Below, in pieces: positions 5,826 through 44,553 of a DNA stretch of 64,000 nt; the stretch's first letter is position 1; every line of letters begins with the position of its first letter. Under the pieces are notes generated by a model, which saw only the letters and a program-made list of their open reading frames with translations, was not told the DNA's origin and did no database searches. The position numbers and the translations under genes are program-made. The stretch comes from an uncultured Actinomycetes bacterium (GTDB lineage Bacteria; Actinomycetota; Actinomycetes; Actinomycetales; Bifidobacteriaceae). The stretch covers positions 310,001-374,000 of the forward strand of contig OMWX01000002.1 of assembly GCA_900314875.1 (NCBI GenBank). Direction: 5' to 3'.

Positions 5826-5849
5826 AACTGAAATCCTTCCAAAAAATAT

Positions 5850-6196
5850 AGCGAGACCTCTTATACCCCGGGTTCTGTCATCCTGAAAGGAAGGACGATC
5901 ATCCATCTGGACCTGACGTTGCCGTCAGGCTCAAGCGGCCTACCCGAAGACTCGAACGAGCAGCTCTTAATGTCTTCTGCTTGGCCTTGCTCCCGATGAG
6001 GCTTGCCATGCGGTTCTTGTTGCCAAAAACCCGGTGGTCTCTTACACCGCCGTTTCACCCTTACCCGACAAGTCGGGCGGTCTGTTCTCTGTTGCGCTTT
6101 CTCTCGGGTCGCCCCGGGCGGACGTTATCCGCCATCGTGCTCTGCGGAGCCCGGAAGTTCCTCAGCTTGCGCCGCGACCGTCAAGAGGTCTCGCAC
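5850..6196 (-). ncRNA. rnpB: RNase P RNA, bacterial type A
   Basis: Catalytic RNA that removes 5' leaders from precursor tRNAs. Read on the minus strand, the ends pair perfectly: GCGAGACCTCTT near 6194-6183 and AAGAGGTCTCGC near 5862-5851 form a 12-bp P1 helix. The conserved core is present: GAGGAACTTCCGGGCTCC shortly after P1, and ACAGAACCCGGGGTATAAG close to the 3' end. Length of about 347 nt fits type A. A run of T follows the 3' end on the minus strand (5846-5841 side). It is transcribed against recX. The several open frames crossing this locus on both strands are not genes. Confidence 0.96.
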
Positions 6197-41168: not shown

Positions 41169-41269
41169 AATTTTTGGTTCAGTCAGATTTTTCTCAACAG
41201 AAGTTAACCGGAATAAGTTCAACGTTAAGCAGAGATTTTTGTTCTAAAAATCATAACCTACTTAACCTA

Positions 41270-41298
41270 TTGACACAGTAGGAAAAGAATGTTAATCT
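41270..41298 (+). promoter_or_regulatory. Promoter of the cysteine-transporter operon and its leader
   Basis: TTGACA (41270-41275), 17-nt spacer, TAATCT (41293-41298). Transcription would start near 41305, giving a ~350-nt leader before the first structural gene. Confidence 0.75.
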
Positions 41299-41331
41299 TT
41301 TTTCATGCTTCAAAATATCGAAAGGAAAAGC

Positions 41332-41469
41332 ATGAATTTTAAAGGAATTCAGACATGCATGGCCATTCCGGAAAAAACGATTTTGAAAATCAGCATGCGA
41401 ATGCGAATGTGCTGCGTTTGCTGTTGTTCTCGGAAAATAGTCTGCAATCTGAAAATATATTCCGCATAA
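41332..41469 (+). CDS. Poly-cysteine leader peptide (attenuator uORF)
   Basis: A 45-codon frame absent from longer gene calls. ATG at 41332 has AAAGGAAA five nucleotides upstream. Its middle reads MRMRMCCVCCCS (nt 41395-41430): five of six consecutive residues are Cys, with two further Cys codons at 41356 and 41443. A ribosome starved of cysteinyl-tRNA would stall at 41410-41427. The 3' part of the frame (41428-41450) is one arm of an antiterminator, and a terminator follows at 41504-41526. The downstream genes encode a likely cysteine uptake system. The peptide has no other apparent function. Confidence 0.8.
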   Translation: MNFKGIQTCMAIPEKTILKISMRMRMCCVCCCSRKIVCNLKIYSA

Positions 41470-41509
41470 AATTGCCGAATAACAGCAAAGATTGAGACTG
41501 AAGCCGGGA
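41428..41509 (+). promoter_or_regulatory. Antiterminator structure of the cysteine attenuator
   Basis: Left arm: TCTCGG (41428-41433) and TAGTCTGCAATCT (41438-41450). Right arm: AGATTGAGACTG (41489-41500) and CCGGGA (41504-41509). They give 12 pairs with one bulged G (41444), an internal loop, then six pairs with one wobble. The right arm takes up the 5' half of the terminator stem, so the two structures exclude each other. A ribosome finishing the leader ORF (stop at 41467) would cover the left arm. Confidence 0.65.
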
Positions 41510-41526
41510 AAGAATCCGGATTTTTT
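41504..41526 (+). terminator. Intrinsic terminator of the cysteine attenuator
   Basis: CCGGG (41504-41508) pairs with TCCGG (41515-41519) around AAAGAA, one wobble pair, followed by A and six T (41521-41526). The stem is short but the U-run is good. It lies 134 nt before the binding-protein start. Confidence 0.6.
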
Positions 41527-41659
41527 ATATTAAAAAATGCTGCAGCGAAAAAATATAAGCAGCAAGACGGACAAAAAGCCGAATATGTTTAAACCTGAAA
41601 CAATTCGTGTTTTGAAACATTTTGTCGCAAACGAATAAGAAAGAAAAAGAGGACGGAAA

Positions 41660-42556
41660 ATGAAGAAGCAGACTTTTGCGGGAATTAGAAAAACAGCCGC
41701 GTTTTTCGCGGCGGCAGCAGGAATAATCGCATTTTTAAGCGCATGCTCCGGAGTAGAAAGCGTGTCTAAAAATAACGGTTCTGAAGTTTCTTCGCAGTCT
41801 GACGGAAAATACCGCACTTTGGATGAAATAAAAAAGGACGGAAAAATCAATATCGGAGTGTTCTCCGATAAAAATCCGTTCGGTTACGTCGACGAAAATA
41901 ACGAATATCGCGGATATGACATTTACTTTGCGGAAAGACTGGGCAAAGATTTGGGAGTCGAAATCAATTATGTTTCTACCGAAGCTGCGAACAGAGTCGA
42001 ATATCTTAAAACCGGGAAAGTTGACATAATTCTCGCCAATTTCACTGTTACCGAAGAAAGAGCAGAAAAAGTCGATTATGCGTATCCGTACATGAAGCTG
42101 TCCCTGGGAGTTATTTCTCCCGACAGCCGCGTTATAAACGACCTTTCCGAAGTTAAAGGCGATGATGAGGTTATTGTAATCTCAGGAACCGTTGCAGAAA
42201 CTTATCTTACGAAGAATTATCCGCAGATTAAACTGCAAAAATATGATACTTATGCGAATGCGAAAACGGCTTTGGAGAATCGAAACGGGATTGCATGGGC
42301 AAACGATAATACGGAAGTTATAGCTTTTGCCAAGCAAAACAGCGGATATACGGTAGGAATTTCGCAACTTGGCGAAAATCAGACGATTGCTCCTGCCGTA
42401 GCAAAAGGCAATTCGCAGCTGCTCGACCGGATTAACGAAGAGATAAAGATTTTGGGCGAAGAGAAGTTTTTCCACAAAGACTACGAGGAAACTCTTGCAG
42501 ACACATACGGACTTGATTACGAGGACAGCCTTGTGATTGAGGGCGGGAAAATCTGA
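41660..42556 (+). CDS. Amino-acid ABC transporter substrate-binding lipoprotein, cysteine-binding (CjaA/BspA-like)
   Basis: A 298-residue family 3 solute-binding lipoprotein. Signal peptide with lipobox LSAC places the acylated Cys at residue 29. The mature part follows the layout of the Campylobacter cysteine-binding protein CjaA: FSDKNPFGYVDENNEYRGYDI, EAANRVEYLKTGKVDIILANFTVTEERAE split over the ligand pocket, PYMKLSLGV, and ending DSLVIEGGKI. The comparison is from memory, not alignment. ATG at 41660 follows AGAGGACGG. The upstream poly-Cys attenuator independently points to cysteine or cystine as ligand. Two permeases follow; no ATPase gene is attached. Confidence 0.88.
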   Translation: MKKQTFAGIRKTAAFFAAAAGIIAFLSACSGVESVSKNNGSEVSSQSDGKYRTLDEIKKDGKINIGVFSDKNPFGYVDENNEYRGYDIYFAERLGKDLGVEINYVSTEAANRVEYLKTGKVDIILANFTVTEERAEKVDYAYPYMKLSLGVISPDSRVINDLSEVKGDDEVIVISGTVAETYLTKNYPQIKLQKYDTYANAKTALENRNGIAWANDNTEVIAFAKQNSGYTVGISQLGENQTIAPAVAKGNSQLLDRINEEIKILGEEKFFHKDYEETLADTYGLDYEDSLVIEGGKI

Positions 42557-42570
42557 CCGGAGACAGACAG

Positions 42571-43221
42571 ATGAGAACGGATATTATCGGACAATATCTT
42601 CCGCTGTTCGAAAAAGCGGCAGTTTTGACGCTGAAACTGGGTTTTTCAGGAATAGCAATTGCCGCTTTAATCGGGCTTGCATGCGCGCTGATTCGATACT
42701 GGCGCGTGCCGATTTTTCAAAGAATTGCAGCCGTTTATATTGAAATCAGCCGCAATACGCCTTCGATTGTTCAGCTTTTCTTCATATATTACGGATTGCC
42801 GAAAATAGGTTTTCCGATTAACAGGTATGCATGCGCTGTCGCGGGAATCGCTTTTCTGGGCGGAAGCTACATGACCGAAGCGTTCAGAAGCGGTCTGGAA
42901 TCCGTTGCTGCGGGGCAGTCGGAAGCAGGTTCGAGCCTGGGAATGACCAAAGTTCAGGTTATGCGTTACATAATTTTTCCGCAGGCTCTTTCCGTGTGCA
43001 ATTCTGCTTTAATCGCAAATATGATTTTTTTGCTCAAAGAAACAAGCGTTTTTTCTGCAATCGGCGTTATGGATTTGATGTTTACGGCGAAAGACCTGAT
43101 CGGAATGAGCTATAACACAACTGAAAGCCTGTTTCTTCTCGTTGTGTTTTATCTGCTCATATTGCTTCCGATTTCCGTTTTGGGAAGCTTTTCGGAAAGA
43201 AGGCTGAAAAAATATGTTTAA
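42571..43221 (+). CDS. Polar amino-acid ABC transporter permease (first)
   Basis: A 216-residue inner-membrane permease of the HisM/GlnP family with about five helices. YIEISRNTPSIVQLFFIYYGLPKIG is the typical early loop, and the EAA coupling motif is EAFRSGLESVAAGQSEAGSSLGMT (split by the conserved Gly), followed by MRYIIFPQAL. ATG at 42571 is 14 nt after the binding-protein stop with GGAG nearby. Its last codons overlap the second permease by 8 nt, so the pair is translationally coupled and likely forms a heterodimeric channel. Confidence 0.9.
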   Translation: MRTDIIGQYLPLFEKAAVLTLKLGFSGIAIAALIGLACALIRYWRVPIFQRIAAVYIEISRNTPSIVQLFFIYYGLPKIGFPINRYACAVAGIAFLGGSYMTEAFRSGLESVAAGQSEAGSSLGMTKVQVMRYIIFPQALSVCNSALIANMIFLLKETSVFSAIGVMDLMFTAKDLIGMSYNTTESLFLLVVFYLLILLPISVLGSFSERRLKKYV

Positions 43222-43900
43222 TATGTCAAATTTGGGATTTGACATTCTGTTTAACGGGATGAATTTTCAAAGACTTTGCCAAGGATTGGCTGTTTCTCTG
43301 AAAATCAGCATGATTTCGATAATTCTGTGTTTTCCGCTCGGACTTGCCATGGGAATGCTTATGACCTTAAAAAATAAGGTTCTTCGCTTCTTTCTTCGCT
43401 TTTATTTGGAATTTATCCGAATTATGCCGCAGCTTGTTCTGCTTTATGTCATATATTTTGGCACGGCTTCGACCTTGGGCTTAAAGTTTACCGCAGAACT
43501 TGCTTCGATTATCGTTTTTACGCTTTGGGGAACTGCCGAAACCGGAGATTTGGTTCGCTCAGCGTTAAACTCCGTGCCCAAACATCAGCATGAGAGCGCA
43601 ATTGCTTTGGGAATGAGCCCTTATCAGACTTTTATGCATATTGTTTTTCCGCAGGCTGTAAGAAGGCTTATTCCTCAGTGCGTTAATCTTATGACCAGAA
43701 TGATTAAAACTACGTCTCTTGTTCTTATGATCGGAGTTACGGAAATAATGAAAACAGCTCAACAGATTATCGAAGCGAATCGCATGAGCAGTCCGAATGC
43801 GGCTTTCGGAGTTTATTTCGCAGTCCTTGTTATGTATTTTGTTCCCTGCTTTCTTTTGAGTCTGCTTGCAAGAAAACTGGAAAAACGTTGGAAATACTGA
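43214..43900 (+). CDS. Polar amino-acid ABC transporter permease (second)
   Basis: A 228-residue HisQ/GltK-type permease, about five helices. It shows RFYLEFIRIMPQLVLLYVIYFG and the EAA-like loop GDLVRSALNSVPKHQHESAIALGMS followed by FMHIVFPQAVRRLIPQCVN. ATG at 43214 lies within the end of the first permease gene. It completes a binding protein plus two permeases; the ATPase that such importers need is not encoded before the bidirectional terminator at 44090, so it must come from elsewhere in the genome. Confidence 0.9.
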   Translation: MFNMSNLGFDILFNGMNFQRLCQGLAVSLKISMISIILCFPLGLAMGMLMTLKNKVLRFFLRFYLEFIRIMPQLVLLYVIYFGTASTLGLKFTAELASIIVFTLWGTAETGDLVRSALNSVPKHQHESAIALGMSPYQTFMHIVFPQAVRRLIPQCVNLMTRMIKTTSLVLMIGVTEIMKTAQQIIEANRMSSPNAAFGVYFAVLVMYFVPCFLLSLLARKLEKRWKY

Positions 43901-44089
43901 CATCCTATATATTGCATAGCAGTCGCGTTGTGTTGTATGCATGTTTTTGATTTGCGATTTTGCAGCTGTTTTGCAAGAAGTGTCATGCATATTCGACTGC
44001 GCAGAACTGCCGTATCAAGAATTGAATTTTAATGCTCCTTTCTGCGCAGACGAAACGTATTTCAAACGATTTTTGAGGCATAAAGAAAA

Positions 44090-44130
44090 CCTCCCGTTTT
44101 TCGAATGTCAGAAAAGCGGGAGGCGTTTTG
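44090..44130. terminator. Bidirectional terminator between the transporter operon and glnB
   Basis: CCTCCCGTTTTTC (44090-44102) pairs with GAAAAGCGGGAGG (44111-44123), 13 pairs with one wobble, 8-nt loop. T-rich tracts follow on both strands. Confidence 0.88.
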
Positions 44131-44157
44131 CAATCCGTTCCGGTGTTTTGGTCTGAT

Positions 44158-44553
44158 TCAGACCTGCGACTGCACGGCTTCGCTTCCTGTTTCTCCCGTG
44201 CGGATTTTAACTGCTCGTCTTATCGGATAACTGAAAATTTTTCCGTCGCCGGGATGTCCGGTAAAAGCCGTTTTCTTAATGGTTTCTATGGTTTTCTCTT
44301 CCCAATCGCCTGAAGATACGACGATTTCGAACTTGATTTTAGGAACTGTATGAACATTCACTTTCTGTCCGCGCACGAACTCGCAAACGCCTCTTTGAGC
44401 GCCGTAACCGGCAACTTGATAGGCGGTCATTCCGTTAATTCCTATTTCTGCAAGCGCATTGCGAACATCTACGAACATTTCGTCTCTGACTATCGCCTCA
44501 ATTTTTATCAGTTCGATTTCTTTTTTGCCGTCTGTCATTTTCGGTTCAGTCAT
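44158..44553 (-). CDS. glnB: Nitrogen regulatory protein P-II
   Basis: PII signal protein, a trimer that binds ATP/ADP and 2-oxoglutarate and blocks AmtB when nitrogen is plentiful. Family landmarks are KIEAIVRDEMFVDVRNALAEIG, the T-loop entry YQVAGYGAQRG, and the C-terminal TGHPGDGKIFSYPIRRAVKIRTGETG. The T-loop reads VRGQKVNVHTVPK, so the tyrosine that is uridylylated or adenylylated in many bacteria (AEYMVD-type) is absent. ATG at 44553 is preceded by GGAG; a second ATG at 44538 is possible. It lies 65 nt downstream of amtB on the same strand, the standard pair. Confidence 0.92.
   Translation of the reverse strand: MTEPKMTDGKKEIELIKIEAIVRDEMFVDVRNALAEIGINGMTAYQVAGYGAQRGVCEFVRGQKVNVHTVPKIKFEIVVSSGDWEEKTIETIKKTAFTGHPGDGKIFSYPIRRAVKIRTGETGSEAVQSQV

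Follow-up and report, generated by a model that had tools for sequence, protein, structure and literature searches.

Attenuators of the trp type combine a run of cognate codons with an antiterminator formed by RNA segments 2 and 3 and a terminator formed by segments 3 and 4. With respect to cysteine, poly-Cys leaders have been reported for the cys and cbs operons of actinobacteria in the excerpted text of PMC1262725, which describes no conserved terminator hairpins for the mycobacterial regions (Seliverstov et al., 2005). The mycobacterial poly-Cys ORFs are leaderless according to the title of Canestrari et al. (2020), as cited in PMC13236596, and the excerpts of the latter source term their mechanism translation attenuation. 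As far as the excerpted sources go, cysteine attenuators have thus been reported for actinobacteria, and one has been predicted upstream of the cysS gene in Rhodobacterales. Leader peptides for cysteine from Bacillota were absent among the literature matches listed, and these matches likewise held no report of a clostridial Cys-leader element, with the subscription literature lying mostly outside their scope. The locus described here was analysed in a stretch of 64 kb of DNA, to whose full length we refer as the window. We consider it likely that positions 41266-41526 constitute a ribosome-mediated cysteine attenuator of a predicted cysteine ABC importer, which was probably acquired, together with its promoter and leader, from Lachnospiraceae-type clostridia.

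All parts of the leader lie on the forward strand. The promoter read from the sequence (41270-41298) consists of a -35 element TTGACA at 41270-41275, a spacer of 17 nt, and a -10 element TAATCT at 41293-41298. It is followed by a Shine-Dalgarno-like AAAGGA (41321-41326) and a leader peptide frame of 45 codons that begins with the ATG at 41332 (41332-41469; MNFKGIQTCMAIPEKTILKISMRMRMCCVCCCSRKIVCNLKIYSA). Five Cys codons are found within six codons of this frame, in the cluster Cys-Cys-Val-Cys-Cys-Cys (TGC TGC GTT TGC TGT TGT; 41410-41427), and the fold model predicts the first two of them (41410-41415) as the sensing codons. The left arm of an antiterminator (CUCGG...AGUCUGCAAUCU) follows at 41429-41450, with an ensemble pairing probability of about 0.995, and ensemble folding places the right arm at 41489-41508. 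The 3' end of the right arm, CCGGG, is at the same time the 5' arm of a short intrinsic terminator (41504-41526; CCGGG-AAAGAA-UCCGG-A-U6; about -6 kcal/mol), whose arms CCGGG (41504-41508) and UCCGG (41515-41519) are followed by an A and by T6 at 41521-41526. An earlier note, made from the letters of this DNA, had claimed the promoter, the 45-codon frame, the ribosome site, the long antiterminator and the T6 terminator; all of them lie where they had been placed, and our scan and folding agree. A second in-frame ATG at 41305, 7 nt past the -10 element, would give a leaderless frame of 54 codons; the frame could start there, in the manner reported for mycobacterial poly-Cys ORFs, but the Shine-Dalgarno sequence precedes 41332.

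The window was searched for the combination of a Shine-Dalgarno sequence, a frame of 12-60 codons, at least five Cys within six codons, and a terminator within 180 nt. A single ORF in the 64 kb matched, the leader frame with its two nested starts, and 60 dinucleotide shuffles of the 64 kb contained no match; hence, the combination is not a product of chance. Poly-Cys strings on their own mean little because they are common enough in this genome: TGYTGYNNNTGYTGYTGY occurs 18 times (overlaps counted), mostly in TGC/TGT repeats, versus 2 occurrences for the reversed control. A second CCMCCC string (C5:258991; L259) was rejected, as it lies in a long frame with no sensible gene behind it. Of 200 dinucleotide shuffles of the 241-nt leader, 199 fold less well than the leader itself (z -3.25). 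Its peptide has no match in NCBIfam or Pfam, and the protein database holds none that shares three words with it. When the window was scanned against Rfam at gathering cut-offs, RNase P alone was recovered and nothing at the leader; positions 41169-41660, searched at E ≤ 1, gave two matches, both far below the gathering scores. The RNase P RNA is of the bacterial class A and is located on the reverse strand at 5848-6193 (307 bits).

As the earlier note had recommended, the leader was folded in the presence of a stalled ribosome, and the predicted switch emerged. In these models, in which the RNA is folded ahead of the ribosome, the antiterminator has a probability of 0.995-0.996 when Cys1 or Cys2 occupies the A site; once the A site has reached Cys3, Cys4, Cys5 or a later codon, the terminator forms with a probability of 0.87-0.88 (mean over five pairs). 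When the edge of the ribosome was varied from +9 to +16, the terminator probability never exceeded 0.05 at Cys1-Cys2 and never fell below 0.77 at Cys4-Cys5 (four pairs), so that this contrast was unchanged at every footprint edge assumed. The outcome at Cys3 varies with the assumed edge; Cys3 may fall on either side because the footprint edge moves the switch by one to two codons. Read-through had originally been attributed to a stall on the Cys codons in general. This holds for Cys1 and Cys2 in the models, whereas a stall at Cys4-Cys5 is predicted to terminate. Antiterminator and terminator share 41504-41508 and are mutually exclusive in the folds, which bears out the claim that the 5' arm of the terminator is taken up by the antiterminator. 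Two-state behaviour appeared in 16 of 1000 sequences in which 41423-41503 had been shuffled and the terminator kept.

The untranslated leader reaches a terminator probability of 0.003 in the fold model, so the antiterminator prevails, and it prevails as well when a ribosome sits at the end of the frame, on the stop codon, provided that the RNA may pair across it. Since the antiterminator wins without a ribosome, the OFF state requires a ribosome that separates the arms. It is plausible that the arms are held apart in this way, because a ribosome that has reached the stop codon at 41467 would occupy most of the space between them; under the footprint assumed here, such a ribosome would lie between the arms and not, as the earlier note had it, on the left arm. 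The mechanism had been called classical ribosome-mediated attenuation, and the folding models retain its logic but predict that an untranslated leader reads through. Folding of the window revealed no trp-type leader hairpin that would terminate when the leader is untranslated. A 'protector' hairpin sequestering the left arm is weak in the window, where 10 of 200 shuffles equalled it, and unsupported in clostridial leaders, where it exceeded the shuffles in 27 of 70. The untranslated read-through and the unsupported protector hairpin thus speak for a trp-like logic and not for the full trp architecture. A possible pairing between CGAAUG and CAUUUG, ahead of the terminator, was inspected by eye and dropped, as it is not conserved.

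Downstream of the leader, on the same strand, lie genes for a CjaA-like substrate-binding lipoprotein that is a predicted cysteine binder by its PDB sequence matches (41660-42556), and for two ABC permeases assigned with NCBIfam, permease 1 (42571-43221) and permease 2 (43214-43900). The best PDB sequence matches of the binding protein are 1xt8 (1.2e-67) and 2yjp (4.8e-65), which we take to be the cysteine-binding proteins CjaA and Ngo2014. The assignment of the first downstream gene to the cysteine-binding CjaA type in the earlier note is thereby upheld, and cysteine is the predicted substrate of the importer. In NCBIfam, the binding protein matches polar amino-acid families alone, below their cut-offs. 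No ATPase gene closes the operon (43900-44158), behind which glnK and amtB lie on the other strand. Elsewhere in the genome, the ATPases most similar to the clostridial one reach 52% identity; they lie at two places, close to further homologues of the binding protein. An ATPase may be missed because the genome is about 90% complete. The surroundings comprise relA, DUF4193 and dUTPase genes upstream, and P-II and ammonium transporter genes downstream. Among 5.8 billion proteins (7996 candidates scored), the sole other match to the binding protein at E ≤ 1e-140 is a nameless 86% fragment.

Gene content suggests that the genome is actinobacterial, probably of the Bifidobacteriaceae. Orthologues of the binding protein (E ≤ 1e-40) are present in 93 of 189 genomes of the same family, the window's own included, and the best of the others are 53-58% identical. 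A convincing short Cys leader was found at none of 38 same-family loci within the 800 nt to 1.5 kb upstream that were scanned, a range that a leader farther upstream than 1.5 kb would escape; the matches that did arise were rejected as off-frame readings through ABC or other genes. From a scan of named genomes, the best 80 of 509 loci were retained, all of them clostridial by title and including Lachnospiraceae, Oscillospiraceae, Monoglobus and Hungatella. A Cys leader, that is, a short Shine-Dalgarno-led frame with a terminator-like end, precedes the same transporter at 24 of these 80 loci, a count that may be too low as further leaders may hide beyond the short flanks. The conservation that had been proposed as a check is therefore seen in clostridia and not at the scanned loci of the window's own family. 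The 80 clostridial binding proteins, which were selected by their similarity to that of the window, are 65-79% identical to it (best segment). For the binding protein, the comparison is about 73% identity for clostridia versus about 60% at best within the family; for permease 1 it is 69% versus 51%, each at best, with a match in three of the 38 same-family loci, and for permease 2, 62.5% versus about 52%, again for the best of each. In a tree that came with warnings about long branches and bootstrap values that had not settled, the window's binding protein groups with 79 clostridial rows (100/99), as a branch outside them; three same-family rows with long branches (L007, L009 and L010) are also placed with the clostridia, and L014 and L100 were omitted as too short. 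The gene order of the window, from the leader through the binding protein to permease 1 and then permease 2, recurs at locus L058, which has an ATPase as well. Judged by sequence, each of the three transporter genes has its nearest counterparts in clostridia.

The clostridial leaders are positioned either directly before the binding protein gene or about 2.3 kb upstream, before the permease genes. Nineteen of the 24 passed an automated screen for terminator and antiterminator, and five (L056, L058, L059, L082, L106) were judged by eye; six of the 30 loci matched by pattern were dropped as off-frame or misplaced (L062, L063, L077, L081, L105, L130). Passes of L077 and L110 in the automated screen were judged spurious, and the broad pattern TGYTGYTGY was discarded because of too many matches. 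The commonest clostridial leader peptide is MCCRM[LF]xSRAYxMAG. Its register, M-C-C-x-x-x-x-S-R, is common to the window (MCCVCCCSR) and to this commonest type (MCCRMLYSR), so that the window leader has the MCC-xxxx-SR geometry with xxxx filled by extra Cys codons. A different type of leader, MMCCDMCCEM (MMCCDMCCEMHMRFVIPI), occurs before the same transporter in Oscillospiraceae-type genomes (L076:566-643 and L078:510-587) and has its own terminator-like end. Nine of the 24 clostridial leader regions align with the window leader above all 200 shuffles, mainly through the stretch of the promoter box described below, and 15 fail to do so. Rfam gave no match at the clostridial leaders tried (seven loci, E ≤ 0.1), and eight leader peptides searched against Pfam and NCBIfam had no meaningful match; the leader peptide of L113 has three matches in the protein database. 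At seven clostridial loci (L113, L056, L070, L097, L106, L123, L128), the cysteine-binding protein is part of one frame of about 550-615 aa. The second half of this frame in L113 (2890-4611) resembles, by eye, a binding protein of the MetQ/NlpA kind, with genes similar to MetN and MetI downstream; perhaps this fusion belongs to a joint cysteine/methionine importer.

Seventeen of the 24 leaders were aligned (A1), leaving aside the type with a GGGCG arm (L056, L057, L058, L059, L106) as well as L076 and L078. The antiterminator of A1 is paired in 98.2% of cells, and three of its ten pairs changed on both sides; its covariation score exceeds all 500 shuffles, and its number of further pair types was equalled by 97 of 500. 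The hexamer CGAATG is invariant in A1, and its CGA, which comes after the last Cys codon, marks where the switch turns; CGA is possibly a slow codon or a pause signal. An Arg-Met pair is present in 66 of the 71 rows of A1 and A2 taken together, and its Arg is encoded by CGA in 65 of the 66. The left arm, which is complementary to the 5' arm of the terminator, begins 11 nt from the Arg codon in 57 of the 59 leaders in which our expression located it. We folded 66 of the 71 leaders, two likely duplicates counted and five without the Arg-ATG landmark dropped. With the codon before CGA, which is Cys in 54 of the 66, in the A site, the mean antiterminator probability is 0.82, and it falls to 0.50, 0.14 and 0.02 when the ribosome stands one, two and three codons further; even with the A site on the codon before CGA, nine of the 66 leaders do not favour the antiterminator. 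In the fold models, the window leader and the 66 clostridial leaders hence switch alike, one to two codons past the sensing Cys codons.

A covariance model (R1) built from the 17 leaders of A1 found 52 places in 39 of 299 genomes (E ≤ 0.01) of one clostridial family, that of G211, the genome of L123, which is titled Lachnospiraceae. In a sample of the phylum, matches were obtained in five of 398 genomes, G211 included (E ≤ 0.001). For 54 matches (50 of the 52 family places and four from the phylum sample), the antiterminator is paired to 96.6%, seven of ten pairs changed on both sides, and all five covariation measures exceed 500 of 500 shuffles; this alignment was fitted to R1, two of its rows (L195 and L254) seem to duplicate leaders of the training set, and the figures concern the clostridial leaders. 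Sulfur amino-acid genes are present within 1.5 kb downstream at 46 of the 54 places, as recognized with reference proteins drawn mostly from the same loci: MetY-like at 24, the cysteine-binding protein at nine, cystathionine lyase/synthase at five, permease 1 at three, CysK at two, MetN at two and MetQ at one, with the matches at L231 and L240 about 1 kb away. The other downstream genes encode a sulfopropanediol dehydratase-like enzyme, a cyclase and a LysR protein, and five places are without assignment. The first of these, in L220 (1501-3155), is a (2S)-3-sulfopropanediol dehydratase-like glycyl radical enzyme preceded by a Cys leader; it scores 780 bits against a cut-off of 1000, the protein being truncated by the end of the locus. 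This arrangement suggests that sulfonate use in this clostridium may be under cysteine control. R1 itself gave no match to the window's leader at E up to 10. Consequently, we do not file the window leader in the R1 family but regard it as a relative by module, and the kinship of its RNA rests on box, register and operon.

The box in question (CCTATTGACACAGTAGG; 41266-41282, forward strand) is a near-palindrome, CCTAYTG-N3-CARTAGG, that contains the -35 element. It matches CCTATTGACAnAGTAGG at 17 of 17 positions, and nothing else in the window scores above 13. Among 78 stretches upstream of clostridial leaders, CCTATTGACAnAGTAGG is found at 15/17 or better in 51 and at 14 or better in 53, while 27 stay below 15 and 25 score 13 or less; letter-shuffled stretches (n = 1560) gave none at 15/17 or better and three at 14 or better. 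Most of the clostridial leaders listed have the identical -35 box upstream, and then a -10-like stretch. In the window's genome the box is the sole copy at up to two mismatches (the reversed pattern gave 1 and 1), and none of the 188 further genomes searched in the family contains it at up to one mismatch. Because it is nearly palindromic and overlies the -35 element, the box is likely an operator, and we take it as the candidate site of a repressor. The genome encodes a single Rrf2 protein (117.5 bits), whose gene is adjoined by luxS and cysK on the opposite strand (L263:1495-3381; C5 near 246400). This protein scores about equally against CymR (123.1 bits; cut-off 195) and IscR (122.1 bits; cut-off 207.55), below both cut-offs, and among PDB entries it matches an unnamed Rrf2 protein best and CymR of S. 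aureus (3t8r) second best. In B. subtilis, cysteine genes are controlled by CymR together with CysK, according to the excerpts of PMC3828012. The Rrf2 protein may be considered a candidate repressor for the box; that it binds there is a guess.

These data lend themselves to the following model. When charged tRNA-Cys runs short, a ribosome translating the leader would halt at Cys1 or Cys2 (41410-41415) and leave the left arm (41429-41450) free to pair with 41489-41508; this pairing would block the terminator, and the importer genes would be transcribed. With sufficient cysteine, the ribosome would cross the left arm and reach the stop codon, the arms would be separated, and the terminator at 41504-41526 would stop transcription. 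The 17-bp box over the -35 element would add a second tier, through a repressor that we infer to read the cysteine state as well. Box, leader and operon were probably acquired together. We claim a common origin, and a like way of working, for this module (box, Cys leader in register, operon) and the clostridial ones. A broader proposal, to which we give an even chance, is that a two-tier cassette of a CymR-type operator over the -35 element and a Cys-Cys attenuator runs a sulfur regulon of the Lachnospiraceae (MetY, CysK, cystathionine lyase, cysteine and methionine importers, and even sulfopropanediol dehydratase), and that it crossed phyla into the actinobacterium as a working unit with the importer, the sensing pair being kept in place and the RNA sequence rewritten.

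Other readings of the locus have to be weighed against the attenuator of clostridial descent. The leader might have arisen convergently in the actinobacterial lineage, like the poly-Cys attenuators of mycobacteria or the one ahead of B. longum cbs, and have been joined to a transporter obtained separately. The failure of R1 to match it and the poly-Cys leaders reported for actinobacterial cys and cbs operons in the excerpts of PMC1262725 are in line with such an origin, which we nevertheless deem unlikely: the box is perfect, shared with leaders of clostridia and present once in its genome, nine of the 24 leader regions from clostridia outscore every shuffle when aligned with that of the window, all three genes are clostridial-like, and the 38 same-family loci scanned are without such a leader.

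A perfect box next to a diverged leader could also mean that control is transcriptional only, exerted by a CymR-like repressor at the box, and that the frame and the folds are functionless relics in the present host. The single Rrf2 protein beside luxS and cysK, with its nearly equal CymR and IscR scores, would suit this view, but it remains below the CymR cut-off and its binding is guesswork, while the Cys run, the arms and the terminator are all intact and shuffling seldom yields a two-state switch; we rate this possibility as very unlikely. That a Cys-rich frame and hairpins merely coincided by chance in intergenic DNA strikes us as extremely improbable, even though Cys strings alone are not rare in the genome and the second CCMCCC frame looks meaningless, because the combined features were absent from all 60 shuffled windows and clostridial counterparts stand before the same transporter.

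With covariation and a regulon of its own, the clostridial family would represent a cysteine sensor of gut and rumen clostridia that annotation overlooks, as far as the loci and leader peptides tried show, and would bear on how cysteine and sulfide are turned over in the gut. The copy in the window would be a case of a leader-peptide attenuator changing phyla along with its operon, and it raises the question whether in such switches the geometry is conserved and not the sequence.

Compared with the trp-type attenuator, the window has the run of cognate codons, the antiterminator and the terminator in common, and differs in being without a leader hairpin that terminates untranslated RNA. The excerpts of PMC8632094 describe uORFC-8-2 before cysS of the Rhodobacterales, which resembles the window in two tandem Cys codons, a terminal U run and a proposed ribosome-mediated attenuation, and differs in that it belongs to another phylum, stands before cysS only and has, by its description, another structure. 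Gram-positive leader-peptide attenuation is likewise represented, in the excerpted sources, by the His leader of bacilli (PMC2965389) and the leucine-rich attenuator peptide of Staphylococcus aureus (PMC5794164), each for another amino acid. With the ORFs of the mycobacterial cys operons, the window shares Cys runs in a short frame before sulfur genes and a cysteine-responsive attenuation, which is predicted in the case of the window. The earlier note had linked the locus to such actinobacterial poly-Cys uORFs; by box, frame register and operon, its nearest relatives are instead clostridial, and the window is set apart from the mycobacterial systems by its intrinsic terminator, its antiterminator, the transporter gene that it precedes, and its clostridial kin.
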